From: Roseibacterium elongatum DSM 19469
GTDB lineage: Bacteria > Pseudomonadota > Alphaproteobacteria > Rhodobacterales > Rhodobacteraceae
Assembly (NCBI RefSeq): GCF_000590925.1
Contig: NZ_CP004372.1
Coordinates: 1,345,001-1,409,000 of the forward strand
Reading direction: 5' to 3'
DNA length: 64,000 nucleotides
Shown here: piece by piece, positions 1,808 to 18,858 of the stretch
Numbering within the stretch: the stretch's first letter is position 1
Layout: each line of letters starts with the position of its first letter
Translations under genes and position numbers: made by a program
Notes under the pieces: model-generated
Seen by the model: the letters and a program-made list of their open reading frames with translations, nothing else
Databases searched by the model: none
Told to the model about the DNA's origin: nothing

Positions 1808-2904
1808 AGGTCGCCGTGTTCCAGCCCGCTCTGCCGGCCTATCGGGTGGATTTCTTTCGGAGGCTCGCGCAGGCCTACGGATCTTGCTTTGCTCTATACT
1901 ATTCGCCTGTGGATATGGGTGCCCTTACCTCGGCACATGACGTTCAGCCGTGGGAGCGCCCCATAGGTGTCATGCGGCATCCCGTGCGCGGTGTGGAATG
2001 GCAGGTCGGCGCGTTATCCGTGCGCATCAACCGCGGCGATCTGGTGGTGGTCTGCGGCGCGCCGCGCACCTTAAGCACGCTTTTGGTCTTGCTCAAGGCA
2101 CGGCTCAAAGGCGCGCGCAGCATCTGGTGGGGCCAGTACTGGACCGCTGGCGCTTCGCCCCGGCGGCAGCGCATGACCATGCGCCTTGTTCATCTGGCCG
2201 ATGCCATCCTGTTCTACACTGATGCCGAGGTCGCACGCTTCCACGCTGAGGGTTGGCGCCATCGCGGGCCGGTCGGGTCGCTCAACAACGGGTTGGACCT
2301 GACCGATGTGGTGCGAACCCGACAGCCATACCAAGCGAGTGCGCGCGGACGGAGCCTGCTGTTCATTGGACGGCTCACGGCGAAGGCCGACCTTGGGCTG
2401 GCCATCCATGCCCTGGCCCGCCCCGAATTGTCCGACGTGACCCTGCATGTCATCGGCGACGGCGATCAACGCGTGCAACTTCGGGCGCAGGCCGAGGCCC
2501 TCAACGTGGCCGACCGCATCGTCTGGCATGGCGGCACAACGGACGAGCGCCGCATCGGCGAGGTGGCCAATCGATGCGCGGCCTTCATCTATCCCGGACA
2601 AGTCGGCCTGTCTCTGATCCATGCTATGGGGTATGGGCTGCCGTGCCTCGTCCATGGCGACTCGGCACAACAGATGCCGGAAATCGCGGCGTTTGAAGAC
2701 GGCAAAACGGGGCGCATGTTCGAGAGAGGGTCGGTCGAGTCCCTGGCGCAGGCGGCTGTCGCCTTGCTCGAGACGCCCGCCGAACGTGAGGCCATGGCGG
2801 CCCGCTGTATCCAGATAGTGGAGGATGCGTACACGACCGCCCGAATGGCCGAGCGGTTTCTGGCTTTTGCAGATCGTCTGATGAAGGCAGAGCCGGTTGA
2901 ATGA
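1804..2904 (+). CDS. glycosyltransferase family 4 protein
   Basis: A 366-residue GT-B fold glycosyltransferase. The C-terminal half has the usual donor-binding run: LLFIGRLTAKADL near residue 180, the VIGDGDQ strand, and a GLSLIHAMGYGLPCLVHGD segment near residue 270. In that segment the usual acidic-x7-acidic donor motif is relaxed, with the first acidic residue missing. It probably transfers a sugar from a nucleotide donor to the growing lipid-linked repeat unit. ATGA overlaps link it to the polymerase before it and to the next glycosyltransferase after it. Composition is closer to the chromosome average than its two neighbours, so the AT-rich block is a mosaic. Confidence 0.8.
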   Translation: MKVAVFQPALPAYRVDFFRRLAQAYGSCFALYYSPVDMGALTSAHDVQPWERPIGVMRHPVRGVEWQVGALSVRINRGDLVVVCGAPRTLSTLLVLLKARLKGARSIWWGQYWTAGASPRRQRMTMRLVHLADAILFYTDAEVARFHAEGWRHRGPVGSLNNGLDLTDVVRTRQPYQASARGRSLLFIGRLTAKADLGLAIHALARPELSDVTLHVIGDGDQRVQLRAQAEALNVADRIVWHGGTTDERRIGEVANRCAAFIYPGQVGLSLIHAMGYGLPCLVHGDSAQQMPEIAAFEDGKTGRMFERGSVESLAQAAVALLETPAEREAMAARCIQIVEDAYTTARMAERFLAFADRLMKAEPVE

Positions 2905-3983
2905 CAAGTCTTCCCGACGATCGCCCAGCAGTCTTTGTATGGACCCCGGACACCACCGTTGTGAATGGGCAGAATATCGTCACTCGCCGTGTCGTGAAAC
3001 ATCAGAATGATTTTGACATTTCAGTCTTCGAATATCCCGCCGGTGGGGGCCTTTCAATTCCAAGTGCCTTTTGGGCGGGTTTTCGTTTTCTCTCCGCATC
3101 AATAGTCAGGCGCCCCTATGTCGCGTATCTAGTCTGTGCGCGCTCAACACTTGGTTTCGTGAGAGATATTCCAGCACTCCTCATAAGTCGGTCTTCGATT
3201 CGGGCGGTCGTCCATATCCATGGATCAGATTTCCCAGAGCTCTTCGCAAAGCCATTTGTCGGAAGGATTGCAAAGTGGATATATAGTAATTGCGAAATCA
3301 TCCTTCCATCGGCGCACTTGGTTCCGCAACTCGTAGAAAAGGATTTCAAGAGACTGGTCGTGTGCGAGAATTTCGGCAAGGTCACTGAAGGCTGCCCTCA
3401 ATCTGACGTTGCGCCGTTGCGAAAGGACGCTGAATTCCAAGTGCTCTGGAGTTCCAATATCATGTCCTCGAAGGGCTTCTTCGATCTTGTGGACGGGATG
3501 AAACTGGCTCGGAAATCCCATCCGAAACTGTGCCTCGTTGTTCTAGGGCGGCCGCATGCCGACGCGGAGAAAACGGAACAAGAGATAAAATCTGCACTCG
3601 ATGAGCTTGGTTTGCATGATTGGGTGCATCTGGTTGGGGCCGTGCCGCCCGAGGCGGTCACGCAATACCTGGAGGCCTGCGATGCGGTCGCACTACCGTC
3701 AACCTATCCAAGTGAGTGCCAACCTCTGTCGATCATCCATGCGATGACGGTTGGCCGAAAGATACTTGTTGCGGATACACCGGCTCTTTGCGCAACGCTG
3801 GGCAATTATCCTGCGGTATTTGTGGATCGAACGGCAGACTCTATCGCGCAGGGTTTGCTACAGCTGATCGAGTCCAGTTCGGCAAAAACAGATGTGACGG
3901 AAGCGCACAGAGCCGAAGCAGAAATCAGATTCTCACCCAGTTCATTTGATGCGAGAATAACGAAGATCTTGAGATCACCCTAA
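2901..3983 (+). CDS. glycosyltransferase family 4 protein
   Basis: A 360-residue glycosyltransferase with a two-domain GT-B pattern. The N-terminal domain carries VVHIHGSDFPEL near residue 105. The C-terminal domain carries a VLWSSNIMSSKGFFDLV strand-loop, VVLGRPHAD, and the donor-binding ALPSTYPSECQPLSIIHAM segment, in which E is followed by further conserved positions. It starts in an ATGA overlap with the preceding glycosyltransferase. Codon use is AT-rich compared with genes from manC onward, suggesting recent exchange together with the polymerase gene. Acceptor and donor sugars are unknown. Confidence 0.8.
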   Translation: MTSLPDDRPAVFVWTPDTTVVNGQNIVTRRVVKHQNDFDISVFEYPAGGGLSIPSAFWAGFRFLSASIVRRPYVAYLVCARSTLGFVRDIPALLISRSSIRAVVHIHGSDFPELFAKPFVGRIAKWIYSNCEIILPSAHLVPQLVEKDFKRLVVCENFGKVTEGCPQSDVAPLRKDAEFQVLWSSNIMSSKGFFDLVDGMKLARKSHPKLCLVVLGRPHADAEKTEQEIKSALDELGLHDWVHLVGAVPPEAVTQYLEACDAVALPSTYPSECQPLSIIHAMTVGRKILVADTPALCATLGNYPAVFVDRTADSIAQGLLQLIESSSAKTDVTEAHRAEAEIRFSPSSFDARITKILRSP

Positions 3984-4468: not shown

Positions 4469-5212
4469 ATGAAAACCTCTGTCGTGATGGCCGCCTACAA
4501 CTCCGAGGCCACGATCGGCACGGCGATCGAGTCGTTCCTTGCGCAGGATCATCCCGACAAGGAACTGATCGTGATCGACGGGGCCTCCACGGATCGCACC
4601 TGTGAAATCGTGCGCGGCTTTGACAGTCCCCTGATCCAACTGCATTCCGGCCCGGACAAGGGGATCTACGATGCGATGAACAAGGGCTTGCGGCGCGTCT
4701 CGGGCGAGGCCTTCGGGTGCCTCAATTCCGACGACCGGTACCACGATGCGGGCGTGCTGGGCAAACTGGCCCGCGCGTTGCAAGGGGCGGACCTGGTCAG
4801 CGGGCGTCTGCATTTCGTGCGCGAGCATGGCAGTGCGCCGGTCCGGGTCTGGCAGGCGGATCGCCATCGCCCCGGTGCCTATGCGCGCGGGTTCACCCTG
4901 CCGCACCCGGCCACCTATGCCCGCCGCGCGGTGCTGGAGCGCGTCGGGGACTTCAGCACCGATTTCCGCAGCGCCGGCGACTATGATTGGTTGATGCGCG
5001 CGCTCGAGGTCGAGGGGTTTTCCCATTCCGTGATCGAGGATGTGATCGTCGACATGCGCATCGGCGGCGAAAGCACGGGTGGCGCGAAGGCCATTCTCAA
5101 GAACAGCCGCGAAATGCTGGAAATCCGGCGCCGGCGGCTCGGCAGTGGCGTGGTCGACGCCGCCCTGTTTCTCAACCTTTTCATCAAGTTCAAACAGGTC
5201 TTGCTGCGCTGA
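4469..5212 (+). CDS. glycosyltransferase family 2 protein
   Basis: A 247-residue GT-A fold enzyme. It begins with the nucleotide-binding strand SVVMAAYNSEATI, has VIDGASTDRT near residue 36, the DKGIYDAMNKGL segment near 62, and the metal-binding LNSDDRY (DxD-like) near 85, all hallmarks of family 2 transferases of the WcaA/PGL type. A further conserved block, HPATYARRAVLERVGDFSTDFRSAGDYDWLMR, contains the ED-like catalytic region. It probably builds the fucose- or mannose-containing repeat unit, since gmd follows 36 bases downstream. The ATG at 4469 starts right at the conserved first strand. Composition is high GC, unlike genes before 4 kb. Confidence 0.88.
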   Translation: MKTSVVMAAYNSEATIGTAIESFLAQDHPDKELIVIDGASTDRTCEIVRGFDSPLIQLHSGPDKGIYDAMNKGLRRVSGEAFGCLNSDDRYHDAGVLGKLARALQGADLVSGRLHFVREHGSAPVRVWQADRHRPGAYARGFTLPHPATYARRAVLERVGDFSTDFRSAGDYDWLMRALEVEGFSHSVIEDVIVDMRIGGESTGGAKAILKNSREMLEIRRRRLGSGVVDAALFLNLFIKFKQVLLR

Positions 5213-5248
5213 GCGACCGCTTGTGCGACGGCGAACGAGAGGATCCCC

Positions 5249-6368
5249 ATGAAAAAAGCACTCATCACGGGCATTACCGGCCAGGACGGCAGTTATCTGG
5301 CCGAGTTCCTGCTTGAAAAGGGCTACGAGGTGCACGGCATCAAGCGCCGTGCCTCGTCCTTCAACACGCAGCGGATCGATCACATCTACCAGGATCCGCA
5401 CACGCCCGACCCCAAGATCAAGCTGCATTACGGCGATCTGACGGACAGTTCGAACCTGACCCGAATCCTGTCACAGGTCGAACCCGACGAGGTTTACAAC
5501 CTCGGGGCCCAGAGCCATGTCGCCGTCAGCTTCGAGGCGCCGGAATACACCGCCGATGTCGATGCGATGGGCACCATGCGCCTGCTCGAGGCGATCCGCT
5601 TTCTCGGCCTCGAGAAAAAGACGCGGTTCTATCAGGCGTCCACCTCGGAGCTTTACGGCAAGGTGGTCGAGATCCCGCAAACCGAGACGACGCCCTTCTA
5701 CCCGCGCAGCCCTTATGCGGTGGCGAAACTCTATGCCTACTGGATCTGCGTGAATTACCGCGAGGCCTATGGCGTCTATGCCTGCAACGGAATCCTGTTC
5801 AATCACGAAAGCCCGCGCCGCGGCGAGACCTTCGTGACCCGCAAGATCACGCGCGGCATGGCCAACATCGCGCAGGGCCTCGAGGATTGCCTTTACATGG
5901 GCAATATCGACGCGCTGCGCGACTGGGGCCATGCAAAGGATTACGTGCGCATGCAGTGGATGATGCTGCAACAGGATACCCCCGAGGATTTCGTGATCGC
6001 CACCGGGGTGCAGTATTCGGTGCGCGAGTTCATCACCTGGACCGCGCGCGAATTGGGGATCGAACTGGCGTTCAGCGGCGAGGGCGTGGACGAGATTGCC
6101 ACGGTGGCCTCGGTCACCAGTGACATGGCCCCCACGCGTCAAACCCGGCGATGTCGTCATGCGCATCGACCCGCGCTATTTCCGGCCCGCCGAGGTCGAA
6201 ACCCTGTTGGGCGACCCGAGCAAGGCCAAGCAGAAACTGGGTTGGGTTCCGGAAATCACGGCGCAGGAGATGTGCGCGGAAATGGTCGCCGACGATCTGA
6301 AAACCGCCCGGCGTCACGCGCTGTTGAAAGAACACGGGTACGAGCTTCCCGTGGCGCTCGAGGGGTAA
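5249..6368 (+). CDS. gmd: GDP-mannose 4,6-dehydratase (composite across a one-base frameshift)
   Basis: Converts GDP-D-mannose to GDP-4-keto-6-deoxymannose, the precursor of GDP-L-fucose and related deoxysugars. Family marks are the Rossmann motif [13 protein letters not shown] at residues 7-19, the [15 protein letters not shown] block, NLGAQSHV, the active-site YGK with [15 protein letters not shown] (YxxxK), and [17 protein letters not shown]. The frame breaks in the five-C run at 6129-6133: dropping one C joins VTSDMAP to [18 protein letters not shown] and gives a normal 372-residue protein ending at 6368. As read, the first frame instead runs through into fcl. The family is otherwise fully conserved here, so I think a base-calling error is more likely than a dead gene. 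Confidence 0.9.
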
Positions 6369-6373
6369 GACGC

Positions 6374-7345
6374 ATGACCAAGATCTACATCGCCGGCCAT
6401 CGGGGCATGGTGGGCGGCGCGATCCTGCGCCTGTTGCAGGCGCGGCAGGCGGCGGGCGAGGATCTGAGGCTCGTCACCCGCACCCATGCCGAGGTCGATC
6501 TGACCGATCAGGCGGCCGTGCGCGATTTCATGCAGGCCGAGGCGCCCGATGTCGTCATCCTGGCCGCGGCCAAGGTCGGCGGGATCATGGCCAACAACAC
6601 CTATCCGGCGGATTTCATCTACGAAAACCTGATGATCGAGTGCAACGTCATCCATCAGGCCTTTGCCGCCGGGGTGACGCGCCTGCTGCAACTGGGCTCG
6701 TCCTGCATCTACCCGCGCGCCGTGCCGCAGCCGATGCGCGAGCACGCGTTGCTGACCGGCGTGCTGGAACCCACGAACGAACCCTACGCCATCGCCAAGA
6801 TCGCGGGCATCAAGCTGTGCGAGAGTTACAACCGCCAGCACGGCACCGATTACCGCAGCGTGATGCCCACCAACCTTTACGGGCCGGGCGACAATTTTCA
6901 TCCCGAAAACAGCCATGTTCTGCCCGCCCTGATCCGCCGCTTTCACGAGGCGACGGAAGAGGGCCGCGACGAGGTCGTGATCTGGGGCAGCGGCATCCCG
7001 CGCCGCGAGTTCCTGCATGTCGACGACATGGCCGAGGCCAGCCTGTTCGTGTTGGACCTGCCGCACGAAGACTACGCCGCCAATACCGAGCCGATGCTGA
7101 GCCACATCAATGTGGGCTCCGGCACCGATGTGTCGATCCTCGAACTGGCGCAGATGGTCGCCGAGGTGACCGGCTTCAAAGGCCGCATCGGCACCGACAC
7201 CAGCAAGCCCGACGGCACCATGCGCAAGCTGATGGACGTGTCGCGCCTGGCCGCGATGGGGTGGACGGCGCGGATCGGCCTGCGCGACGGCATCGAGGAT
7301 GCCTATCGCTGGTTCCTCGACCATCGTGATACCGCCCGTCTCTGA
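6374..7345 (+). CDS. fcl: GDP-L-fucose synthase
   Basis: Epimerises and reduces GDP-4-keto-6-deoxymannose, the Gmd product, to GDP-L-fucose using NADPH. The 323-residue length is normal. Visible marks are the N-terminal GHRGMVGGA dinucleotide loop, [12 protein letters not shown], the catalytic-serine block [24 protein letters not shown] (YxxxK), and [25 protein letters not shown], a strong Fcl signature. It starts 5 bases after the corrected gmd stop, and it happens to be in the same frame as the front part of gmd, so the frameshift creates an artificial fused reading frame of about 698 codons. Together gmd and fcl predict fucose or a related 6-deoxyhexose in the surface polysaccharide. Confidence 0.93.
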
Positions 7346-7377
7346 CGCCACTGCCGCATTCGCCCACGGAGCCTTCC

Positions 7378-8797
7378 ATGACGCAAGACATTCATCCCCT
7401 TCTCCTTTGCGGCGGTTCCGGCACGCGGCTGTGGCCGCTGTCGCGCAAGAGCTACCCCAAGCAATTCGCGCCCCTCACCGGCGAACGCAGCCTGTTTCAG
7501 GCCTCGGCGCTGCGCCTGTCAGGGCCCGGTTTCGCCGCGCCGACGGTCATTACCGGGTCGGATTATCGCTTCATCGTCACCGAGCAATTGGCCGCAGTGG
7601 AAATCGCGCCCGCCGGCATCCTGATCGAACCCGAGGCGCGCAACACCGCGCCGGCGATCTGTGCGGCCGCGGTGGCCTTGCATGACCGCGCGCCGGGGGC
7701 CTTGATGCTGGTGGCGCCCTCCGATCACGTGATCCCCGATGCCGACGCATTCCGCGACACGGTGGCCGCCGCGGTCGCCGCCGCCCGGTCGGGGCGCATC
7801 GTCACCTTCGGCATCCGCCCCGACCGGGCCGAAACCGGCTATGGCTGGCTGGAACCCGTCGCCGAACCCGATGGGTTGCAACCGCTCAAGGCTTTCGTCG
7901 AAAAGCCCGATGCCGCCACGGCGCAGGCCATGCTCGATGGCCGCAAGCACCTTTGGAATGCCGGGATCTTCCTGTTCTCCACCGAGGCCATCCTTGCCGC
8001 TTTCGAGGCCTATGCCCCCGACATGTTGGCCGGCGTGCGCCAGGCCGTCGCCGAGGGCAGCCAGGACCTTGGCTTCACCCGGCTGGCGCCCGCCCCTTGG
8101 GCCGGTCTCGCGGATCTGTCGATCGACTATGCCGTGATGGAAAAGGCCGACAACCTGTCGGTCATGCCCTACGAGGGGGGCTGGTCCGACCTGGGCGGCT
8201 GGGAAGCCGTCTGGCGCGAGGCTGGCCCGGACGAGGCCGGCATCGTCACCAACGGGCCGGCCACGGCGATCGAGTGTCACAACGTCTTGCTGCGCGCCGA
8301 ATCCGAGGATCAGCAGCTGGTGGGCATCGGCCTGCAGGATATCGTGGCCATCGCCATCGCCCGACGCCGTGCTGGTCGCCCACAAGGACCGCGCGCAAGA
8401 GGTCAAGCGCGCCGTCACAACGCTCAAGGCCCAGGGCGTGTCGCAGGCCGATACCCTGCCGCGCGACTACCGGCCCTGGGGCTGGTACGAAAGCCTGGTG
8501 GTCGGTGCGCGGTTCCAGGTCAAGCGCATCGTCGTGCATCCCGGCGCGGCGCTGAGCCTGCAAAGCCACCATCACCGCGCCGAGCACTGGATCGTCGTCG
8601 AGGGGACGGCCAAGGTCACCGTGGACGACAGGGTACAACTCGTGACCGAGAACCAGTCCGTCTACATCCCGCTCGGCGCCGTGCATCGCATGGAAAACCC
8701 CGGCAAGGTTCCGATGGTGCTGATCGAGGTGCAGACCGGCAGCTACCTGGGCGAAGACGACATCATCCGCTACGACGACGTCTACGCCCGTGGCTGA
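7378..8797 (+). CDS. manC: mannose-1-phosphate guanylyltransferase / mannose-6-phosphate isomerase (composite across a frameshift)
   Basis: Makes GDP-mannose, the substrate of Gmd next door. The N-terminal nucleotidyltransferase domain has LLCGGSGTRLWPLSRKSYPKQF at residues 9-30, VAPSDHVI, FVEKP and LWNAGIFLF. The C-terminal cupin half has RPWGWYESL, SLQSHHHRAEHWIVVEGTA and the metal-binding histidines of the isomerase domain. The halves are in different frames. Removing the C at about 8358 reads IAMPDAVLVAHKDRAQEV, the usual junction of these proteins, and gives 472 residues, normal for the bifunctional type. The stop overlaps the GTG start of the next gene. No phosphomannomutase (manB) gene is in the window. 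Confidence 0.9.
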
Positions 8798-9650
8798 GCC
8801 TTCGCGTCTGCTGCTGCTCGGGGCCTCGGGCCGTGTCGGGCGCATGGTGACGCATCACTGGCGACGTGCGCCGCCCAATGGTGCCGTCATCACGGCGCAA
8901 CACCGCGATCCCGATCGTGCCGACGGCCTGTTCTGGCCCCTGCTCGACCCCTCGGCCAAGGGCCCGCAGCCCGGCGCGTTTGACGCGACCATCTGCCTTG
9001 CGGGTGTGACGCCGGGGCCGGGGGCGGACCTGTCCCTGAACACAGGCCTGGCCGAAGCGGCCTTGACCGCCGCCCATCGCGCCGGGATCGGCCGCGTGCT
9101 GGTGGCCTCGTCCTCGGCGGTCTACGGGGCGGGGGATGGGACACCGTTTTCCGAAACCGCCCGCACCGATCCCGTCAATGCCTACGGCGCCGCCAAACTG
9201 GACATGGAACGCGCCTGCGCCCCCTGGCGGGACAAGGGCGTCGAGGTCTGCTGCCTCAGGATCGGCAACGTGGCGGGCGCCGATGCGCTGTTGCTGAACG
9301 TGGCGCGCAGCGCGCCCGATCAGCCCCTGGTGATCGACCGCTTCGCCGATGGCCGCGGGCCGGTGCGGTCCTATATCGGCGCGCGCAGCATGGCCGATGT
9401 GCTTTTGACCCTCGCCACGACGCCGCGTGACTTGCCCGAGGTGCTGAATGTCGCCGCCCCCGGCCATGTCTGGATGGAGGATCTGGCCAGGGCCGCCGGG
9501 CACCCGTTCGACTTTCGCGATGCGCCGCCGACCGCGTATCAGTCCATCACGCTCGCGTGTGCCCGCCTTGCCGCGCTGCATGACTTTGCGCCCGACGCCG
9601 CCGATCCCGCCGCGCTGGTGACGCAATGGAAAGAAACACTGCCCCGATGA
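8790..9650 (+). CDS. NAD(P)-dependent epimerase/dehydratase (SDR family)
   Basis: A 286-residue extended short-chain dehydrogenase. It shows the dinucleotide loop LLLGASGRVGRMV at residues 7-19, VLVASSSAVYG (active-site serine region), and NAYGAAKLDMERAC with the YxxxK pair near residue 131. Such proteins epimerise, reduce or dehydrate nucleotide sugars; the exact substrate cannot be read. The GTG start overlaps the manC stop by 8 bases, and its own stop overlaps the next gene's start as ATGA, so it belongs to the sugar-nucleotide/transferase operon. Confidence 0.8.
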   Translation: MAEPSRLLLLGASGRVGRMVTHHWRRAPPNGAVITAQHRDPDRADGLFWPLLDPSAKGPQPGAFDATICLAGVTPGPGADLSLNTGLAEAALTAAHRAGIGRVLVASSSAVYGAGDGTPFSETARTDPVNAYGAAKLDMERACAPWRDKGVEVCCLRIGNVAGADALLLNVARSAPDQPLVIDRFADGRGPVRSYIGARSMADVLLTLATTPRDLPEVLNVAAPGHVWMEDLARAAGHPFDFRDAPPTAYQSITLACARLAALHDFAPDAADPAALVTQWKETLPR

Positions 9651-10252
9651 CCCCCGCAAAACGCCTGTTCGACCTTGTCTGCGCCATCCTCCTGTCGATC
9701 CTGCTCGCGCCGGTGATCGTCCTTGTCGCGATGCTGATCCTCGTGCTCGATGGCCGGCCAATATTCTACATCTCCGAGCGGATGAGATCCTCGACCCAGG
9801 GGTTCGATCTGGTCAAGTTCCGCACCATGAAACCGGTCGCGGGCGACAGCGGCGTTTCGGGTGGCGACAAGTCGGACCGCATCACCAGGACCGGCGCCTT
9901 CCTGCGGCGGACGCGACTCGACGAGGTGCCGCAATTGTGGAACGTGCTCCGCGGCGACATCAGCTTCGTCGGGCCGCGACCGCCCTTGCGCCAGTATGTC
10001 GACCGCTTCCCCGACCTCTACGGGCGCGTGTTGCAATCGCGCCCCGGCATCACCGGGCTGGCCTCGATCTACTTTCATGCGCACGAGGAACACCTGCTGG
10101 CCCGCACCTCCAGCCGCGAGGAAACCGACGCGGTCTATTCCCGCGCCTGTATCCCGCGCAAGGCGCATCTGGACCTGATTTATCAGGAAAACCGCACTGT
10201 CTGCATGGACATGATGGTGATGCTCAAGACGGTGTTCAAACGCCTTCGCTGA
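9647..10252 (+). CDS. initiating sugar-1-phosphate transferase (polyisoprenyl-phosphate hexose-1-phosphate transferase, ExoY/WcaJ family)
   Basis: Transfers the first sugar phosphate to undecaprenyl phosphate, beginning the repeat unit at the inner membrane. The 201-residue form has the small monotopic layout: AKRLFDLVCA followed by a hydrophobic hairpin at about residues 8-32, then FYISERMR, DLVKFRTM, RRTRLDEVPQLWNVLRGDISFVGPRPPL with the catalytic D-E region, and RPGITGLASI. The ATG at 9647 gives an ATGA overlap with the upstream gene and places the KRLFD motif close to the N terminus as usual. An ATG at 9626 is possible. It is the last gene before a strong terminator. Confidence 0.88.
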   Translation: MTPAKRLFDLVCAILLSILLAPVIVLVAMLILVLDGRPIFYISERMRSSTQGFDLVKFRTMKPVAGDSGVSGGDKSDRITRTGAFLRRTRLDEVPQLWNVLRGDISFVGPRPPLRQYVDRFPDLYGRVLQSRPGITGLASIYFHAHEEHLLARTSSREETDAVYSRACIPRKAHLDLIYQENRTVCMDMMVMLKTVFKRLR

Positions 10253-10289
10253 CGGGAAACCCGTCGGCGTCGCGGAAAATCACCGGGCG

Positions 10290-10304
10290 TTAATCATTCC
10301 TCAA
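10290..10304 (+). promoter_or_regulatory. imperfect CtrA-like box upstream of the spike genes
   Basis: TTAA, seven bases, then TCAA; the CtrA consensus is TTAA-N7-TTAA, so one base differs. It lies about 90 bases before the spike-base gene, but also upstream of a terminator hairpin, so it could equally be chance. Confidence 0.25.
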
Positions 10305-10337
10305 CCCTTTAAGGGCAAGGTAGCTCCGTCACTCACC

Positions 10338-10374
10338 GAGGCCGCCCCGCATTTCGCGCAGGCGGCCTTTTCTT
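10338..10374 (+). terminator. Rho-independent terminator after the sugar transferase operon
   Basis: An AGGCCGCC arm and a GGCGGCCT arm flank a 14-base loop and are followed by a T-rich run (TTTTCTT). It separates the nucleotide-sugar/transferase operon from the two spike genes, implying that those have their own promoter or rely on read-through. Confidence 0.7.
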
Positions 10375-10392
10375 GTTCAGGAGCCTGCCCGC

Positions 10393-10656
10393 ATGAATCC
10401 CTTTCAGAACCGCGCCCCGCAACTGTCCGGCCCCGCCACCGATGCCTTGCCCGTCACCCCCGACGATGGGGCCGACCTGTCGCGCGTCGCCATCGGGCTG
10501 TATGTCGAAACCGGCGGCAGCCTTTCGGTCGTGACCGTGAATGGTCAGACGCGGTCCCTGTCCGTGGCCGATTTCTCGATCCTGCCGCTTGGCGTGCGGC
10601 GTGTCAGGGCCACGGGCACGACGGCCAGCGGCATCCACGCCATGGTGCTGGCATGA
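10393..10656 (+). CDS. ghsA: GTA head-spike base protein, Rcc01079 (GhsA) family
   Basis: An 87-residue protein that matches, from memory, the spike base family named after R. capsulatus Rcc01079. Shared traits are the start MNPFQNRAPQLSGPATDA, a VTPDDGADL turn, a repeated beta-strand pattern (AIGLYVETGGSLSVVTVNG), and a LPLGVRRVRATGTTASGI ending. In R. capsulatus this protein anchors spikes at the vertices of the GTA head. A GGAG ribosome site precedes the ATG, and the stop overlaps the next gene as ATGA, so the base and fibre genes are cotranslated. It lies within a polysaccharide locus and far from any GTA structural cluster in this window. Confidence rests on pattern recall, not on a search. 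Confidence 0.75.
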   Translation: MNPFQNRAPQLSGPATDALPVTPDDGADLSRVAIGLYVETGGSLSVVTVNGQTRSLSVADFSILPLGVRRVRATGTTASGIHAMVLA

Positions 10657-11495
10657 AACTGGTCACCGATGTTTCGCTGACATCCCGACCTGCGGCGGTG
10701 GCGGTGGGGTGGACACCCGCCGCCCTGTTCGCGGCGGGTGAGCCGGGCGCATGGTTCGATCCATCCGCGCCCGGGGCGCTGTTTCAGGACGCAGCGGCCA
10801 CCATTCCGGTCACGGGGCCCGATCAGCCGGTGGGTTGCATGCTCGATCTGTCGGGCCGGGGCTGTCACGCGACACAGGACGATCCCGCCGCACGCCCCAT
10901 GTATCGCAGGTTCGGGGATATCCATTCGCTCGAGTTCGACGGTCTGGACGACATGCTTTCGACCCCGGGCATCGATCTGACGCAGACACCGCAGCTGGGC
11001 GCTTTCGCCGGGGTGCGAAAGCCGGCAGACATCTTCGGGCCCTATGTCGGACAAGGCGATTGGACCGCGGGCGATCTCGGGGCGTGGGATCTGGCCGTTG
11101 GCGCGTCTTTTCCCGGCAGCACCCCGGTCCTGCGCGACACCTATCGCGGCGGGTATCGGCAGATGTCCGATTTCAATACGGTTGTCGGCCGCCCCTTTTC
11201 CGGTCAGCGCGACGATGTGCATGGCGTGTATTTCGACATGTCGGCGACGGGGCAAGTCGCCAAGATCGGCTTGCGGATCAATGGCGCACCACCGCCGACA
11301 GTTGCCCTTGCGGGGGACGATGCGACGGGGCCGGGTTTTCGCAATGATCCGGTCGTGATCGGCGCACGCAACGGATCGTTCGCGACGATCTGTCTGCATG
11401 GGCTCGTCATTCGCGGCGCGTCCTTCACACCGTCCGAGATCGCGCAGACCGAGGCGTATCTGGCCCTCCGGTCGGGTGTCACCCTCTCGCTCTGA
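10653..11495 (+). CDS. ghsB: putative GTA head-spike fibre protein (GhsB/Rcc01080-like, receptor-binding)
   Basis: A 280-residue protein cotranslated with the spike base gene through an ATGA overlap. The first 30 residues are a short linker. Then come AWFDPSAPGALFQDAAAT, DLSGRGCHATQ and LEFDGLDDMLS, a pattern of concanavalin/LamG-like jelly-roll domains common on phage fibres. No enzyme motif is visible. By position and fold it is the likely receptor-binding spike fibre, and in R. capsulatus the equivalent protein is needed for the GTA to bind capsule. Fibre proteins diverge fast, so its match to Rcc01080 is inferred mainly from the neighbour. It ends 22 bases before the convergent phosphatase gene. 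Confidence 0.6.
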   Translation: MKLVTDVSLTSRPAAVAVGWTPAALFAAGEPGAWFDPSAPGALFQDAAATIPVTGPDQPVGCMLDLSGRGCHATQDDPAARPMYRRFGDIHSLEFDGLDDMLSTPGIDLTQTPQLGAFAGVRKPADIFGPYVGQGDWTAGDLGAWDLAVGASFPGSTPVLRDTYRGGYRQMSDFNTVVGRPFSGQRDDVHGVYFDMSATGQVAKIGLRINGAPPPTVALAGDDATGPGFRNDPVVIGARNGSFATICLHGLVIRGASFTPSEIAQTEAYLALRSGVTLSL

Positions 11496-11517
11496 CGGCG
11501 GTAACGGAGACAGCGGG

Positions 11518-12270
11518 CTATCTGGTCTGGATGAAGCGCACCAACCCGTCCGGGTCGATCCGTGCGGCGGTCAACGGCCCGCCGTAAACGGCCCCGGTGT
11601 CCAGGGGCACGCGGCCGCGCTCCGCCTTCGGGTCCTCGACCGGGACATGCCCGTAAGCGACCCATTGGGCGTCGGTGCGGTCGATGCGGCCAAAGCTGCT
11701 GGTGCCCCAGAGCAACGTGTTTGCCTCTTGCGCAGGCATCGGCAGGGCCGGATCCGCGGCGGCATGAACGGCCCACAACGTGCCCGAGTTCCAGGACAGC
11801 GGCAGCGCTTGCAACCATGCGATCCTGTCGGCGCCCAAGGCTGCGCGGATGTCGAAGGCAAGATCGACAAGCGCGGCCGCATCGCCGCCTTCGCTGGTGA
11901 CCTGCGCACGCAACCCCATGCTGGCCACCGTTTCCAGCCCGCCATGACGCAGCCATCGTTTTGCCGGGCCGGTCGGATCGTCGAGAAAGTCGAGCATCAT
12001 GCGCTCGTGATTGCCCAGAAGGCAGGTGATCAGATCCGGCGCTTCGGTCTGCGCCCCGTGCAGGAACTCAAGAACCACGGCAGAGTCCGGCCCGCGATCG
12101 ATGTAGTCGCCAACAAAGACAAGGGCCGGATCCCCCGATATCGCATAGTCGAACTCGGCTTCGACCAGTTGCATGAGATGTTCGAGTTCGGCGGCGCACC
12201 CATGGATGTCGCCCACCAGAAAGGTCGTCCGGGTTGGAGATGGCGATGCCCAGTTGTCCCGTTTCGTCAT
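11518..12270 (-). CDS. PPP-family metallophosphoesterase (serine/threonine-type protein phosphatase)
   Basis: A 250-residue calcineurin-like phosphatase. All core metal-binding motifs are present: GDIHG at residues 20-24, GDYIDRG at about 53-59, GNHE near 87, and two later histidines (VHAAAD and YGHVPV). Such enzymes hydrolyse phosphoserine, phosphothreonine or phosphotyrosine. It is convergent with the spike genes and divergent from the export lipoprotein gene, sharing a 241-base promoter region that contains a strong palindrome. The polysaccharide operon encodes a tyrosine autokinase but no Wzb-type phosphatase is in the window, so this enzyme could be its partner. That is inference. Confidence 0.85.
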   Translation of the reverse strand: MTKRDNWASPSPTRTTFLVGDIHGCAAELEHLMQLVEAEFDYAISGDPALVFVGDYIDRGPDSAVVLEFLHGAQTEAPDLITCLLGNHERMMLDFLDDPTGPAKRWLRHGGLETVASMGLRAQVTSEGGDAAALVDLAFDIRAALGADRIAWLQALPLSWNSGTLWAVHAAADPALPMPAQEANTLLWGTSSFGRIDRTDAQWVAYGHVPVEDPKAERGRVPLDTGAVYGGPLTAARIDPDGLVRFIQTR

Positions 12271-12429
12271 GTGTTCCCTGTCTCAACTTGTGGCCGCCAA
12301 TTGGTGTGCCGAAAATGCATCGGTTGGGCCTCAATCCCGAGGGCCATATCCTCACGCCTCGTACCGCGCAAGCAAGGCCGGTAAAACCGCGATCAAAAGA
12401 ACAACTGCGAAGCAGGTGGGCGGACGCAT

Positions 12430-12450
12430 AGCAACACCCGCGGTGTTGCT
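12430..12450. promoter_or_regulatory. 21-base palindrome in the divergent phosphatase/export promoter
   Basis: Arms AGCAACACC and GGTGTTGCT are perfect inverted repeats around CGC. It lies 62 bases before the export lipoprotein start and 160 bases from the phosphatase start. There is no T run, so it reads as an operator for a dimeric regulator rather than a terminator. The regulator is unknown. Confidence 0.5.
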
Positions 12451-12511
12451 GCCAAGACGTCCCGCAATTTGTCGCTTTGCAGGGGCGTACACAACAAGAC
12501 GGCTGTCGAAC

Positions 12512-13867
12512 ATGTATCTTAAATCCTTGGTTGCCGTGGCAATTGCGTTTCTGGTGTCGGGATGCGGCTCCGCCTATGTTGCCAGCGATATCAACGATGT
12601 GGCCGGCGTGGAGGAGATCGAGGTCGTCGACATCTCGGCCTTTGTCGTGCGTCAGGCAAACAATGCGCCCTACGCACCGCAGGATTTGCCGGATGCGTTT
12701 TCCTTGATCGCAAGTGGATCGACACCGCCCCGGGCGCCGCGCCTGCCGGACCAGGTTTTCGATCCCGAGGCCCGCCCCGGCGCAACCGTCCTGCGCGCGC
12801 CGCCCGTCGTGAACCCCGAGCCGTATCGCATCGGCGTGGGCGACGTGCTGATCCTGGCCACGCCGCGCGGCCAATCCACCGTCGAGGAACTTGCCGGCCT
12901 CGTCGCGGCTCAGAACCAGCGCCAAGGATACACCGTTCAGGACGATGGCATGATTTCGGTGCCGTCGATCGGGCGCATCATGGTTGGCGGCATGACGCTG
13001 GATGCGGCCGAAGATGCGATTTTCCAAAGGCTGATCGACGCCCGGATCGATCCGACCTTCAGCCTCGAGATTGCCGAGTTCAACTCGCAGCGGGTGTCGG
13101 TCGGCGGCGCCGTCGGCAGCCCCGGCGTCGTGCCGATCACGATCCAGTCCGTCACCCTGGACGAGGTCTTGGCGCAGCGGGGCGGCGTGAACGCGCGGGA
13201 TGCCGATTACACCGTGATCCGTATCTATCGTGATGGCACGCTGTACCAGATCCCGCTCAACGATTTTTATGCCGAAAACTCCTTGCGCCGCCTGCGGATG
13301 TTGAGCGGGGACAGTGTCTTTGTCGATACCGACTACGACCTCGACCTGGCGCAGGCCTTTTTCCAGGAACAGATCGCGCGCGCGAACTACAACCGCTCGG
13401 TGCGTGCGGCCGCGATTTCGGAATTGCAGGCCGAGATCTCGATTCGTCGCGGGGCGCTGCAGGAAACGCGCAGCAACTTCCAGGCGCGTCTCGATCTTGG
13501 CGCGGAAAGCCGCGAGCATGTCTACATCATGGGCGAGGTGCCGAATCCGGGCCGGTTCGCTCTTCCTTACGAGAATGTCGCCGTGCTTGCGGATGTGTTG
13601 CTGGATGCCGGCGGCGTGCAGCAAAGCACCGGCAACCCCGGTCAGATCTACGTGATGCGCGCGCCCTACGAAGATGGAACGACGCTGCGCCGTGTGACCG
13701 CCTATCGACTGGATGGCCGCAACGCGGCGAACATGGTGCTGGCAACGCGCTTTGAAATGCGGCCGGGCGATGTGGTCTTTGTCGCAGCGCAACCGATTGC
13801 CCGCTGGAACCGCTTCATTTCCCTGGCGCTTCCGACCCTGAACCTGGGTAATCGTTTGAACAACTGA
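12512..13867 (+). CDS. outer-membrane polysaccharide export lipoprotein (OPX, Wza/KpsD/ExoF type)
   Basis: A 451-residue secreted lipoprotein. The signal peptide ends in LVSGCG, a lipobox with Cys at residue 18. The polysaccharide export domain starts at about residue 107 (YRIGVGDVLILATP) and is followed by the SLBB-type repeats around VSVGGAVGSPGVVPI and VYIMGEVPNPGRFALP, which form the periplasmic rings of the export channel. ATG 12512 is chosen because it starts the signal peptide; the frame is open further upstream but without a signal sequence. It works with the Wzc-like kinase gene 0.1 kb downstream to carry polymer across the outer membrane. Confidence 0.9.
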   Translation: MYLKSLVAVAIAFLVSGCGSAYVASDINDVAGVEEIEVVDISAFVVRQANNAPYAPQDLPDAFSLIASGSTPPRAPRLPDQVFDPEARPGATVLRAPPVVNPEPYRIGVGDVLILATPRGQSTVEELAGLVAAQNQRQGYTVQDDGMISVPSIGRIMVGGMTLDAAEDAIFQRLIDARIDPTFSLEIAEFNSQRVSVGGAVGSPGVVPITIQSVTLDEVLAQRGGVNARDADYTVIRIYRDGTLYQIPLNDFYAENSLRRLRMLSGDSVFVDTDYDLDLAQAFFQEQIARANYNRSVRAAAISELQAEISIRRGALQETRSNFQARLDLGAESREHVYIMGEVPNPGRFALPYENVAVLADVLLDAGGVQQSTGNPGQIYVMRAPYEDGTTLRRVTAYRLDGRNAANMVLATRFEMRPGDVVFVAAQPIARWNRFISLALPTLNLGNRLNN

Positions 13868-14007
13868 ATGTCGTACAGCGTGGAGCCGGCGCGCATCCCG
13901 TCGGACGCGCGCTGTGCAGTAACGGACGGGTCGTCTAGACTTGGCATGGGTGTGTATTGCCGCTACGGCCAATGCAGCCCGGCAGGGGTCGGGAATACTC
14001 GGTGCGG

Positions 14008-16146
14008 ATGGTGGCGGACAAAATGCAAGACATGACCTCGTTCCCAAGCAATGGACCTGAACAGGACTCGCAGGACGAGATCGATCTGGTCGAACTGCTG
14101 AGAACGATCTGGCGCGGCAAGTGGGTTATCGTCCTCACCACCGTTCTGGGCATCTTGTTTGCGGTCTATCAGGCCTTCGTCGTGGCCGTGCCGCTGTACC
14201 CGGCGCGTGCGACCGTCGCCGTCGAAAGCGGCGACACGCAGATGGTGATCTCGGAAATCGACAGCGTCTTTTCCGGCGCCGGCACGGACTCGGTGGCGTT
14301 GAATACCGAGATCGAGGTGATCCTGTCACGCGATCTGATCGGGCAGTTGGTGGATGACCTCGACCTTGTCGCCGACCCGGAATTCAACGGTGCGCTCCGG
14401 GATCTGCCGTTTCGAACGAGGGCTTTGAACTGGGTGCGCGGGATCGAGCGGGCCTTGCCCAGCGATGCGCGGATGCGCGCCTCGGTGATCGACTCGGTCA
14501 TCAATCGCGTCAATGTCGAAAACCTCCGCTCCACGCGCGTGTTCAACATCGAGATCGAAACCACGGATCCGCAGAAATCGGCCATGATCGTGAACCGCCT
14601 GGCCGGGATCTATATCGACAGCCAGATTCGCCGCAAACTGGACGCCACGACGCGCGCCATCAGCTTTCTCAGCGACCGCACGACCGAATTGCAGGCCAAT
14701 GTGGCCGAACTGGAACGGCAACTGGCCGCGCAGACCGAGGAATCCAACGTCGTGTCGGCCGACCTCGTGCAGGCGCAGAACATCCAGTTGCGCGAATTGC
14801 GCGAGCGGATCGAGGATCAGGCACAGCGCCTTGCCGATGAGCAATCCATTCTTGCCAACCTGGTTTCGGCGCGGGGCGATTTCGACGCCTTGATCTCCGC
14901 CGCAGAGGCCAGTGGCGAGTCGCGCCTTTTGTCCATCACCCAGCGCTTCCGCATGGGGCGTCTGGACAGGGTCGAAGCGAATGCAGCCGTCGAAGACGTG
15001 ATCGCAACCCTTATCGCCAACAGCGAGCGCGCGGCCCAGCAGCTTGAGACATTGCGGCAATCCGAAAGCGATCTGGCAAGCCGTATCGCGGCACAATCCG
15101 CGGAACTGATCGCCTTGCAGCAGCTCGAGCGTGAAGTGAACGCCGCCCGCCTTTTGTACGAGACGTTTCTGACCCGCCTGCAGGAGGCCAGCGTCCAGCA
15201 GGGTCTGGAAACCGCCGACGCGCGCGTCCTGTCCGAGGCGGTGCCACGCGGCGCGTCGAGCCCGAGGAAATCCCTCTATGTCATGCTTGGCCTGATGCTC
15301 GGGGCGTTGCTCGGCATCGCGATTGTCCTCGTCCGCGAATGGCGGTTTGCCGGTTTCCGCACCACCGACGAGTTGCGGGACCTGACGGGCATGCCGGTGC
15401 TGGGCACGGTGCCGGCCCTGCCGACCACCGACCGGCGCGAGGTTCTGGCGCTGCTCAACTCGCAGCCCAATTCCGTCTTTTCCGAGGCCGTGCGGAACCT
15501 GCGCACATCCATCCTGATGGCCAGCATCGACCGCCAGCCGCAGGTCATCCTCATGACATCTTCGATACCGTCCGAGGGCAAAACCACGCTTGCCATCGCC
15601 TTGAGCCGGCTGCTGGGTGCCATGGAGGGGAAACGCGCCCTGCTGCTCGAGGCCGACATCCGGCGGCAGACACTGCGCGCCTATGTCGATCATGACCCCG
15701 GCGCATCGCTTGCGGATGTTCTTCTGGGGCGTCTCGATCTCGATGCCGCGGATTTGCTCGACCCCGATCTTGGCGTCGACGTGCTGAGCGGCGGCGAGGC
15801 AAAGGTCAACGCCGTGGACCTGTTCTCGTCACGCCGCTTTGGCGATCTGATGGAGGCCCTGCGCCACCGCTACGATTACATCGTGATCGACGCACCGCCC
15901 GTGCTGGCCGTGCCCGATGCGCGCGTTCTGGCCGCCTATGCCGATGTCACCGTCTTCGCAGCCCGTTGGTCGAGCACGTCGAAAACGCAACTGCGCCAGG
16001 GGCTCCAGATGCTCGAAACGGTCGGTCATCCGGCAGACGGGATCGTCATGTCGCAGGTGGATCTGAAAAAGCTCAAGACCTACGGCTACGCCGGCCAGTA
16101 CGGCTATGACAGTTATTCCTCGAAGTACTACAGCACGCAAAGTTGA
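14008..16146 (+). CDS. Wzz/Wzc-type chain-length determinant with C-terminal tyrosine autokinase (BY-kinase)
   Basis: An inner-membrane protein controlling polymer length and export. The N-terminal Wzz domain holds IDLVELLRTIWRGKWVIVLTTVLG (first membrane helix near residue 45), a long periplasmic coiled coil (about residues 190-370), and a second helix at LYVMLGLMLGALLGIAIVLV. The cytoplasmic kinase has a Walker A loop SSIPSEGKTTLA, a Walker A' LLLEADIRRQT, a Walker B YIVIDAPPVLAVPDARV, and a C-terminal tail with seven tyrosines in the last 22 residues, the autophosphorylation cluster. The start is uncertain: in-frame ATGs occur at 14008, 14023 and 14032 and the frame is open from 13957. It is paired with the export lipoprotein gene upstream. 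Confidence 0.9.
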   Translation: MVADKMQDMTSFPSNGPEQDSQDEIDLVELLRTIWRGKWVIVLTTVLGILFAVYQAFVVAVPLYPARATVAVESGDTQMVISEIDSVFSGAGTDSVALNTEIEVILSRDLIGQLVDDLDLVADPEFNGALRDLPFRTRALNWVRGIERALPSDARMRASVIDSVINRVNVENLRSTRVFNIEIETTDPQKSAMIVNRLAGIYIDSQIRRKLDATTRAISFLSDRTTELQANVAELERQLAAQTEESNVVSADLVQAQNIQLRELRERIEDQAQRLADEQSILANLVSARGDFDALISAAEASGESRLLSITQRFRMGRLDRVEANAAVEDVIATLIANSERAAQQLETLRQSESDLASRIAAQSAELIALQQLEREVNAARLLYETFLTRLQEASVQQGLETADARVLSEAVPRGASSPRKSLYVMLGLMLGALLGIAIVLVREWRFAGFRTTDELRDLTGMPVLGTVPALPTTDRREVLALLNSQPNSVFSEAVRNLRTSILMASIDRQPQVILMTSSIPSEGKTTLAIALSRLLGAMEGKRALLLEADIRRQTLRAYVDHDPGASLADVLLGRLDLDAADLLDPDLGVDVLSGGEAKVNAVDLFSSRRFGDLMEALRHRYDYIVIDAPPVLAVPDARVLAAYADVTVFAARWSSTSKTQLRQGLQMLETVGHPADGIVMSQVDLKKLKTYGYAGQYGYDSYSSKYYSTQS

Positions 16147-16447: not shown

Positions 16448-18406
16448 ATGGAACGATTTCTGGATTTCATCTTTGCACTGAGCCGTCGGCAGAAGCGCCT
16501 GGTTCAGGCCTTCATCGATGTCGCGATCATCTGCGTCGCCTTTGCCCTCGCCATGCTGCTTCGGCTCGATGGTCTGCGCTTCGCTTCCAACACGGCGAGT
16601 TGGAGCGTCCTGCTGCCCGTCATTCCGCTCACGATCGCGGCATTCTGGGCCCTGGGTCTGTACCAGGCCGTGGTGCGCTACATCGCCAGTTCGATGATCC
16701 GGACCATCGGGATAGGCGCGATCGCGTCTGCCATCGTGATGTTCGCGGCCGCGTTGCAGATGGATCTGCCGGTGCCGCGGTCGGTGCCGGGCATCTATGC
16801 GATCGTGCTCTTCCTGCTGGTCGGCGGCGCGCGCATGGTCGTGCGGTTGCTCAGTATCGCGCGGCGCGCGAACAAGTCGCGGAATGTCATCATATACGGG
16901 GCCGGATCGTCGGGGCGTCAGCTGATGCATGGGCTGCGCCAGGGGATCGAATTCAACCCGGTGGCTTTTGTCGATGACGACGCCAGCCTGCACAAAAGCC
17001 AGATCGGCGGGTGCAAGGTCTATGCCCCCCACATGCTTCAGCATCTGCTGGACCGCTATCAGGCCGGAGTCGTTCTGCTCGCCATGCCGAAACTCGGTCG
17101 CGCCGAGCGAAACAGGATCGTCTCCCGACTCGAGCCGCTCTCGGTGCAGGTGATGACGGTGCCGGGGCTGGCCGACCTGGTGTCGGGCAAGCATGCCATC
17201 AACGAGCTGCGCTCCGTGGCCCCCGAAGACCTTCTCGGGCGCGACCCCGTTCCGCCGCGCGCGGATCTGATGCACCGCAAGATCGAAAGCCGGACGGTGC
17301 TTGTGACGGGCGCGGGCGGCTCGATCGGCAGTGAACTGTGCCGCAAGATCCTGACCAGTCGCCCCGAGACCCTGATCCTGTTGGATATTTCCGAGTTTGC
17401 GCTCTACACGATCCACGAGGAATTGCAGATCGCGAAGCTCGAGGGCGACTATACCACCAATATCGTTCCCTTGATGGGGTCGGTGCAGAACGCGGATCGG
17501 ATGGCCAAGATCATGATCCGCTACAATGTGAATACCGTCTTTCACGCCGCCGCGTACAAGCATGTGCCGCTGGTCGAACAGAATGTCATCGAAGGCATCC
17601 GCAACAACGTTTTCGGGACCTTCTCGCTGATCAAGGCGGCGCGAGATCATGGCGTGCGCGACTTCACCCTCGTTTCGACGGACAAGGCCGTGCGCCCGAC
17701 CAACGCCATGGGGGCGTCCAAGCGGTTGGCCGAGTTGATCTGTCAGGCCCTGGCGCTCGACGAGGTCGGGATGACGATCTCGATGGTGCGCTTCGGCAAT
17801 GTTCTCGGGTCCTCCGGGTCGGTGATTCCGCGGTTTCACGACCAGATCCGCAAGGGCGGGCCCGTGACGGTGACCCATCCCGAGATGACGCGCTACTTCA
17901 TGACCATCCCCGAGGCCGCCGAACTGGTGATTCAGGCCGGCGCCATGGCGCGGGGGGGCGAGGTCTTCGTGCTCGATATGGGGCAGCCCGTCCGAATTCT
18001 CGACCTCGCGGAGCAGATGGTGCGGCTGCACGGCCTCAAACCCTATCGGCGCACCGATGCCGGAAACGAGCAAGATGGCGACATCGAAATCGTGATCGCC
18101 GGCTTGCGACCGGCCGAAAAGCTCTATGAAGAGCTGTTGATTGGCGACAATCCGCAGCCGACAAGCCACCCGCGAATCATGTGTGCCTCCGAGGATTGCC
18201 TGTCATTCGAGAATTTGACCGTCCTGCTGGAGCAATTGGACAAGGCATGTTCCAAGCATGACATCCCGCGGATCCTGCGGCTGATCTCGGATGCGCCGAC
18301 AGGGTATATTCCGTCCAGCACCATCCACGATCTGCTCTGGAGCGATAAGGCATGGATCGCGAAAAGTGATCCTGTCGCTCCGTTGAAGCAACTGGTCGGG
18401 CCCTGA
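16448..18406 (+). CDS. membrane-bound nucleotide-sugar 4,6-dehydratase/epimerase (FlaA1/CapD/WbpM family)
   Basis: A 652-residue enzyme with four N-terminal membrane helices in residues 15-130 and two Rossmann regions. The first is NVIIYGAGSSGRQLM near residue 144. The second and catalytic one is VLVTGAGGSIGSELCRKI near 284, with ALYTIHEEL, FHAAAYKHVPLVE, STDKAVRPTNAMGASKR (active-site residues) and RFGNVLGSSGSVIPRF. It converts UDP-N-acetylhexosamines into 4-keto-6-deoxy forms, supplying an aminosugar, often the first sugar of the repeat unit. It follows the export genes in the same direction after a 0.3 kb gap. The best ATG is 16448; 16440 is out of frame. Confidence 0.9.
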   Translation: MERFLDFIFALSRRQKRLVQAFIDVAIICVAFALAMLLRLDGLRFASNTASWSVLLPVIPLTIAAFWALGLYQAVVRYIASSMIRTIGIGAIASAIVMFAAALQMDLPVPRSVPGIYAIVLFLLVGGARMVVRLLSIARRANKSRNVIIYGAGSSGRQLMHGLRQGIEFNPVAFVDDDASLHKSQIGGCKVYAPHMLQHLLDRYQAGVVLLAMPKLGRAERNRIVSRLEPLSVQVMTVPGLADLVSGKHAINELRSVAPEDLLGRDPVPPRADLMHRKIESRTVLVTGAGGSIGSELCRKILTSRPETLILLDISEFALYTIHEELQIAKLEGDYTTNIVPLMGSVQNADRMAKIMIRYNVNTVFHAAAYKHVPLVEQNVIEGIRNNVFGTFSLIKAARDHGVRDFTLVSTDKAVRPTNAMGASKRLAELICQALALDEVGMTISMVRFGNVLGSSGSVIPRFHDQIRKGGPVTVTHPEMTRYFMTIPEAAELVIQAGAMARGGEVFVLDMGQPVRILDLAEQMVRLHGLKPYRRTDAGNEQDGDIEIVIAGLRPAEKLYEELLIGDNPQPTSHPRIMCASEDCLSFENLTVLLEQLDKACSKHDIPRILRLISDAPTGYIPSSTIHDLLWSDKAWIAKSDPVAPLKQLVGP

Positions 18407-18782: not shown

Positions 18783-18858
18783 TGGTGCCGCTGAAGGGAC
18801 TCGAACCCCCGACCCCATCATTACGAATGACGTGCTCTACCAGCTGAGCTACAGCGGC
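18783..18858 (-). tRNA. tRNA-Thr, anticodon CGU
   Basis: On the minus strand the cloverleaf folds cleanly: acceptor GCCGCTG pairs with CAGCGGC, the D arm is GCTC/GAGC, the anticodon stem CGTCA/TGATG encloses loop TTCGTAA, and the T loop is TTCGAGT. The anticodon CGT at loop positions 34-36 reads ACG threonine codons. The 3' CCA is encoded (TGG at 18783-18785 on the plus strand). Confidence 0.95.

Follow-up and report, generated by a model that had tools for sequence, protein, structure and literature searches.

The 64,000-nucleotide stretch of the Roseibacterium elongatum DSM 19469 genome analyzed here (contig NZ_CP004372.1, positions 1,345,001 to 1,409,000; hereafter the window, in which coordinates are counted from its first letter) carries a gene for the base of a gene transfer agent (GTA) head spike, followed directly by a putative spike fibre gene, on a surface-polysaccharide island. 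Our analysis revealed that this linkage of spike and polysaccharide genes recurs in many genera of the family Rhodobacteraceae. In single cases the variable part of the fibre seems to have been exchanged together with neighboring sugar genes, and the fibre gene itself can mark the border of the exchanged cassette. On balance, we lean towards regarding the pair as a GTA head spike with a capsule-linked, co-exchangeable binding tip.

The first gene of the pair, ghsA (10393..10656, + strand), is a GTA head-spike base gene. It encodes an 87-residue protein of the kind termed here type S, with a C-terminus of the TGIHAMVLA type. The protein matched the NCBIfam profile NF048002, 'spike base protein, RCAP_Rcc01079 family', over the curated cut-off (E 2.4e-32, 111.1 bits, cut-off 28), and the solved Rcc01079 chain 6tb9_E3 in a phmmer search (E 3.2e-9). 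Its AlphaFold2 model is all-beta and confident (pLDDT 90.7), with the jelly-roll fold of its nearest solved structure, the GTA spike base 6tb9 (top Foldseek match, E 2.2e-6, TM-score 0.76); the base of phage Carin1 (8cjz) was the next match. An earlier note, made from the letters of this DNA, had named the 87- and 280-residue open reading frames (ORFs) ghsA and ghsB; both were found where it placed them, with a four-base overlap, and profile, sequence and fold matches bear out the first name. Unlike Rcc01079, the window protein belongs to another subtype, with a GIHA C-terminus and Ser in place of Glu12 in an ungapped alignment. According to the published description, Glu12 of Rcc01079 makes a cation contact with the capsid protein (PMC7296036). 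The other type-S rows of the alignment also lack Glu at position 12, which NF048002 does not demand.

The linkage was examined in a family sample of 295 genomes (loci, genomes and contigs are denoted L, G and C, respectively). A spike base was found in 102 of them and the GTA_TIM domain, which is not exclusive to GTAs and occurs in up to seven copies per genome, in 259; both were present in 97 of the 102, and GTA_TIM was commoner in spike-base genomes than in the others (97/102 vs. 162/193, p 0.005). A Pfam-based test covered the 16 genomes with a spike-base contig of at least 1 Mb and the 44 Bac_transf, 31 Wzz and 40 Poly_export matches in them. Of their 18 spike-base places, 10 lay within 10 kb of such a match, while 0.46 were expected (binomial p 4e-12). 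This test used rounded genome sizes and start-to-start distances and is free of seed bias from the case loci. The linkage proposed in the earlier note is therefore strong in the family. Furthermore, hidden Markov models (HMMs) built in this analysis, with seeds partly drawn from case loci, detected a core polysaccharide gene within about 10 kb in 57 of 111 spike-base loci vs. 1 of 20 contig-matched random windows. From 115 spike-base places, 111 regions entered the analysis; a second place within L037 was set aside, as were two pieces in G100:C15 and G223. When the count also took in sugar and glycosyltransferase genes, 29 of 35 loci of type S and 47 of 75 of type R were positive, the types being assigned to 110 loci by C-terminal motif only (L132 gave no ORF). 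A second locus set, composed of the window, L166 and the best 80 of 152 loci and obtained with a search pattern that favors type S, gave a sugar-gene hit in 70 of 82.

The linkage extends to plasmids. According to their annotation, sugar-polymer genes surround the spike base on four of five PLSDB plasmids inspected, namely those of Tritonibacter, Pontibrevibacter (conjugative), Rhodovulum and Roseinatronobacter (in which no fibre directly follows the base). On the fifth, from Sulfitobacter faviae (L331, NZ_CP116421.1), the neighbors of the spike base are genes for replication and partition rather than for sugars. At L329 (NZ_CP049814.1 92983-113237), on a conjugative plasmid of types MOBP and MPF_T, an O-antigen-type locus contains the spike base and the tagged ORF after it; such a plasmid could serve as a vehicle for a spike/sugar cassette.

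The second gene of the pair (10653..11495, + strand) directly follows ghsA, overlapping its stop (10653-10656), and encodes a ghsB-like fibre of 280 residues. The protein matched phrog_10356, 'virion structural protein' (head and packaging, E 2e-6), and gave no match in Pfam, NCBIfam or the PDB sequences. An alignment of the window fibre and its relatives (25 rows, 24 distinct) divides it into a docking tag plus conserved anchor (residues 1-105; 10653..10967) and a hypervariable tip, presumed to be the sugar-binding part (residues 106-280; 10968..11492). Mean pairwise identity is 0.47-0.60 over residues 31-105 vs. 0.13-0.27 beyond, with a step at residue 105. The tip probably adopts a lectin fold: among the best PDB matches of the fibre model (TM-scores of about 0.4-0.5) are trans-sialidases, which have a lectin domain of the concanavalin A (ConA)-like fold, several of its viral structural matches carry the name ConA-like lectin, and the Pfam domain Laminin_G_3 was found (E 0.0033) in 2 of the 25 alignment members. 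As to the tag, PMC7296036 describes the start of the fibre of the Rhodobacter capsulatus GTA (RcGTA), IALGLGLGL, as filling five hydrophobic pockets of the base pentamer. In all 68 ORFs of at least 180 residues downstream of spike bases in the second locus set, hydrophobic alternation at the N-terminus averages 3.50, compared with a maximum of 2.60 over 1000 shuffles. The window fibre begins with MKLVTDVSL (alternating positions M-L-T-V-L, score 3) and is a weaker instance than the set.

Signs of joint exchange are seen in Celeribacter. Strains PS-C1 and HF31 and C. naphthalenivorans share a blastn block averaging 87-89%, which extends from -10 kb across ghsA and breaks at +534 to +563, 83-91 codons into the fibre gene. 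Between PS-C1 and C. naphthalenivorans, identity is 89% for GhsA, 75% for fibre residues 1-85 and 28% for the remainder; the respective values for HF31 against its two congeners are 82-85, 51-56, and 24-29%. Compared with Aliiroseovarius crassostreae, HF31 has a GhsA 69% identical, a fibre 62% identical over residues 1-85 and 53% over the remainder, as well as seven common downstream genes at 62-75% identity (three for glycosyltransferases, one for a hexapeptide transferase and three without a Pfam match or unscanned); its upstream flank follows its own genus. In the fibre tree HF31 groups with A. crassostreae (100/99), a Celeribacter clade being rejected (p-AU 0.007), and the GhsA tree of 85 columns holds Celeribacter together (95/71), the clades for these tests having been picked after inspection of the neighbor-gene comparison. 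In A. halocynthiae the conserved block stops 0.17 kb before ghsA, and both the spike and the downstream genes differ. Maritimibacter HL-12 and S23 share three upstream genes (72-84%) and no downstream gene, with tips at 27%. In Thioclava and four other Aliiroseovarius the fibre and sugar genes remain together. Among 24 close pairs, the 16 with tips at least 60% identical share 1-9 downstream genes (at least 55% identity) and the eight below that value share 0-4, a comparison that rests on few independent events. A further group of similar fibres (L172, L174, L182, L184, L195, and L202; tips 59-73% identical, L172/L174 92%) shares the next gene at 71-77%, which in L184 encodes an NAD-dependent epimerase, and little else is common on these mostly short contigs; fibre and next gene may possibly form a two-gene mobile unit.

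Across genera, 10 of 16 pairs of similar fibres share a neighbor gene (at least 50% identity) vs. 144 of 2262 other pairs (Fisher 8e-9). The 16 pairs, from a one-per-genus set, comprise fibres with a tag score of at least 3 and at least 40% identity in alignments that extend 100 residues or more beyond residue 85; they are not independent, and sharing occurs in 4 of 7 groups. In addition, rank tests were performed on 62 of the 82 second-set loci, 14 being left out for having no downstream ORF of at least 180 residues and six being removed by eye (L171, L192, and L244 for their N-termini; L176, L216, and L227 as open-ended). Since the removal by eye favors the tag statistic, the tag test was repeated on all 68 ORFs, as given above. 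Given GhsA, the whole-fibre score correlates with the neighbors (r 0.174, p 0.0005 in 62 loci; r 0.148, p 0.0035 in 48 loci); a first version, in which neighbor ORFs were over-excluded, gave r 0.156 and p 0.002.

In the window, the locus around the spike genes is of the Wzy type, with initiator, polymerase, glycosyltransferases, outer-membrane polysaccharide export (OPX) protein and Wzc. Its genes lie on the + strand unless stated otherwise. It includes a Wzy-like O-antigen polymerase gene (341..1807; PF14296, 28.5 bits, cut-off 26.6), followed by two genes for group 1 (GT4) glycosyltransferases (1804..3983; PF00534, 1.2e-18 and 6.8e-18) and one for a glycosyltransferase-2-like protein (4469..5212), the last recognized only by an HMM built in this analysis (GT2a, from L127) and without Pfam confirmation. 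A fused GDP-mannose 4,6-dehydratase/GDP-L-fucose synthase (Gmd-Fcl) is encoded at 5249..7345 (TIGR01472, 516.8 bits; NF047922, 516 bits; both over cut-off) as a single ORF of 698 residues. Next come a gene for a mannose-1-phosphate guanylyltransferase-like (ManC-like) protein (7378..8850; PF00483, 1.2e-41; TIGR01479, 327 bits, below the cut-off of 373), one for an NAD-dependent epimerase/dehydratase (8790..9650; PF01370, 3.9e-20) and the Bac_transf gene for the initiating sugar-phosphate transferase (9626..10252; PF02397, 8.4e-51), which adjoins ghsA in L167-L171 too. Beyond the fibre gene are an antisense gene for a calcineurin-like phosphoesterase (metallophosphatase; 11518..12270, - strand; PF00149, 9.8e-11) and genes for the OPX protein (12173..13867; PF02563, 2.4e-14; SLBB_2, 9e-29), a Wzc-type co-polymerase with a domain like that of bacterial tyrosine kinases (13957..16146; PF02706, 1e-16; PF13807, 1.4e-13; PF13614, 1.1e-7) and a CapD/FlaA1-type nucleotide-sugar epimerase/dehydratase (16448..18406; PF02719, 6.3e-118). 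The pair thus sits, as had been described, between the initiating transferase and the export genes (12173-16146), with the antisense metallophosphatase gene also intervening. The claim that the fibre gene neighbors AT-rich, probably exchanged polymerase genes did not hold: GC content is 0.486 for the wzy-like gene, 0.520 for the second and 0.643 for the first GT4 gene, and the AT-rich genes stop 6.7 kb before the fibre gene. With a GC content of 0.660, the fibre gene itself was rejected as an AT-rich exchanged gene.

A tRNA-Thr(CGT) gene (18783..18858, - strand; ARAGORN) forms the right border of the variable island. Homology to all four congeners examined starts at this gene and extends rightwards at 73-80% identity. 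To its left (window 2000-18782), with 40 candidates scored per genome, no long DNA match was found in any of the four except in the ManC region, which matched at 65-67% in three of them, besides short matches. Since congener homology stops at tRNA-Thr, the spike genes are part of a lineage-specific polysaccharide island. An integrase site marked by a repeat of the tRNA end was not supported, as no such duplication was found within 30.8 kb to the left of the gene, which the island borders. In the congener locus L166, a type-R spike base with a different fibre of 490 residues lies beside other sugar genes.

The genome, a single contig of 3.56 Mb, also carries the GTA capsid cluster that the earlier note suggested locating. 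This RcGTA-type cluster lies at about 2.32-2.33 Mb, about 1 Mb from the spike genes, and encodes a portal (to Rcc01684, 1.9e-180), a major capsid protein (to Rcc01687, 7.5e-187), a tape protein (RcGTA_tape, 350.8 bits), an Rcc01695-type distal tail protein, a prohead protease and a peptidase. The same genome has a second, divergent spike-base gene (G000:C1:587377-587613, L034; 68 bits) with neither a tagged fibre directly after it nor sugar-gene hits. A similar gene, with a similar C-terminus, is found in the congener G235 (L037, two in tandem), and G296 has a further weak match. At G292:C17 a type-R spike base (654-899) is located about 10.6 kb from a GTA_TIM gene (11493-12383), unlike the separation in the window genome.

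We propose that GhsA would form a pentameric base on the capsid vertices, into which GhsB would be plugged as a fibre by its N-terminal tag, and that the lectin-fold tip may bind surface polysaccharide. With the spike genes inside a polysaccharide cassette, the variable tip would be inherited, gained and sometimes exchanged with the genes for its likely ligand; as homology can cross ghsA and the fibre anchor, recombination in this conserved stretch could swap the tip along with sugar genes. Released particles would then attach to cells whose coat comes from the same cassette. Plausibly, the particle carries the fibre, the fibre recognizes the polymer of its own locus, and linkage maintains the match between donor and recipient; the published role of R. 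capsulatus head spikes in capsule binding makes tip-coat matching a reasonable expectation. The stronger proposal, of a self-matching recognition cassette in which released GTAs bind the producer's capsule type and exchange of the cassette shifts the DNA-exchange group, is tentative.

Several observations weigh against this reading. Of the 110 one-per-genus loci, 34 gave no sugar-gene hit, and in 10 of 11 Ruegeria loci ghsA is retained but no recognizable fibre comes directly after it (L179, L189, L191, L193, L198, L203, L218, L225, L239, and L243; L225 ends soon past ghsA). PDB and NCBIfam searches did not link the window fibre by sequence to Rcc01080 (the Rcc01080 sequence itself was not compared); for the set as a whole, the alternating-hydrophobic N-termini after spike bases support a fibre-like partner. 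The fibre model is of moderate quality (pLDDT 69.5, parts of the variable half <50). The megatron gene of the GTA cluster (L035:16187-18403, about 2.33 Mb) is frameshifted, with its TIM domain over two frames near L035:17945, which may reflect inactivation or a sequencing error. The joint swap of fibre and sugar genes stands in single cases such as HF31/A. crassostreae, and independent swaps are few. HF31 has an anchor of only modest identity to those of its congeners, and GhsA (85 columns) does not reject its union with A. crassostreae (p-AU 0.60). The Celeribacter downstream region is a mosaic rather than a clean block: the five downstream genes common to PS-C1 and C. naphthalenivorans range from 48-95% identity, with two reaching 85 and 95%, and HF31 shares two with C. 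naphthalenivorans and three with PS-C1 at 50-70%. Six of the 16 similar-fibre pairs share no neighbor, and the neighbors that are shared were not each identified as sugar genes. Finally, the rank test of tip vs. downstream genes in the 62 loci, whose thresholds were set after seeing the neighbor-gene comparison, was null (r = -0.024, p = 0.80), and the downstream genes correlate weakly with the anchor (r 0.126, p 0.005) and with GhsA (r 0.092, p 0.03). The tip test addresses directly the earlier proposal that fibre type tracks polymer type, which is favored by the cross-genus pairs and not by this result; with most tip identities close to noise level, the rank tests carry little weight either way.

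It is conceivable, and we give it a minority share of our confidence, that the locus is shared for the common regulation of spike and capsule (recipient state, quorum sensing) and not for a match of tip and polymer, co-exchange being a passive by-product of linkage. Linkage alone could yield the Celeribacter pattern, and the null tip test agrees with such a view, which, however, predicts neither a border inside the fibre gene nor a hypervariable tip next to a conserved anchor, and sits poorly with the neighbors common to 10 of 16 similar-fibre pairs across genera. The type-S pair might instead have lost its GTA role or have another besides it, polysaccharide loci having recruited it from phages as a surface lectin or as a capsule-associated protein, given that type S differs from the Rcc01079-like type R, that ghsA stands without a fibre in most Ruegeria loci, that GTA_TIM is missing from the genome of one type-S locus (G114), and that the megatron gene of the window genome is frameshifted. 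We consider this unlikely, as the genomes of 34 of 35 type-S loci have GTA_TIM (a domain not exclusive to GTAs), docking tag and base fold are kept, and GTA_TIM is enriched in spike-base genomes. Functionless prophage remnants hitch-hiking in polysaccharide islands, an idea that the spike bases of viral contigs and phages and the position of the island at a tRNA gene might invite, appear very improbable and already weakened: open frames and close ghsA-fibre spacing recur across genera, and none of the 111 loci contained a homologue of eight structural proteins of the genome's own GTA (phmmer E 1e-4; other phage types were not sought).

The reading of a capsule-linked GTA spike may be compared with known systems. 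Phage tail fibres are subject to modular tip exchange, with a conserved anchor and a variable, swapped tip; unlike there, the tip here seems to travel with cellular genes possibly making its receptor. Phage Carin1 has a spike base of the same fold and also a fibre anchor module, and Rc phages have related spike-base proteins. Matches to Rcc01079 are described in RcapNL and to Rcc01080 in RcapMu (PMC8601537). Unlike the window genes, the spike genes of all these phages lie in phage genomes and not beside host polysaccharide genes. A further likeness is to GhsA/GhsB (Rcc01079/Rcc01080) of R. capsulatus, with the same base family and fold and adjacent base and fibre genes. There too, the spike genes lie next to capsule genes and outside the main GTA cluster, an adjacency that the earlier note had mentioned and that is indeed in print together with co-regulation (PMC10218006), and the head spikes mediate capsule binding (PMC7296036, PMC10218006). 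The window differs in its tag (MKLVTDVSL vs. IALGLGLGL), in fibre length (280 vs. 325 residues) and in a locus with initiator, OPX, Wzc and Gmd-Fcl fusion. Among the literature titles and abstracts searched, none concerned family-wide spike-polysaccharide linkage or joint exchange. Compared with the R. capsulatus adjacency, the generality of the linkage and the fibre gene as a cassette border are apparently new, with priority uncertain.

The persistence of GTAs is an open question, because producers die spreading DNA. If the tip is tied to the genes for the recipient coat, transfer would be aimed at cells with the same cassette, i.e., kin, and GTAs would be kin-directed via the physical linkage of key and lock. 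Such linkage would also suggest one reason for spike genes lying outside the main GTA cluster; a 2026 preprint raises the idea that scattered GTA loci may evolve faster (PMC13420450). Kin-directed transfer becomes testable through the recurrence of the linkage and the position of the border within the fibre gene.
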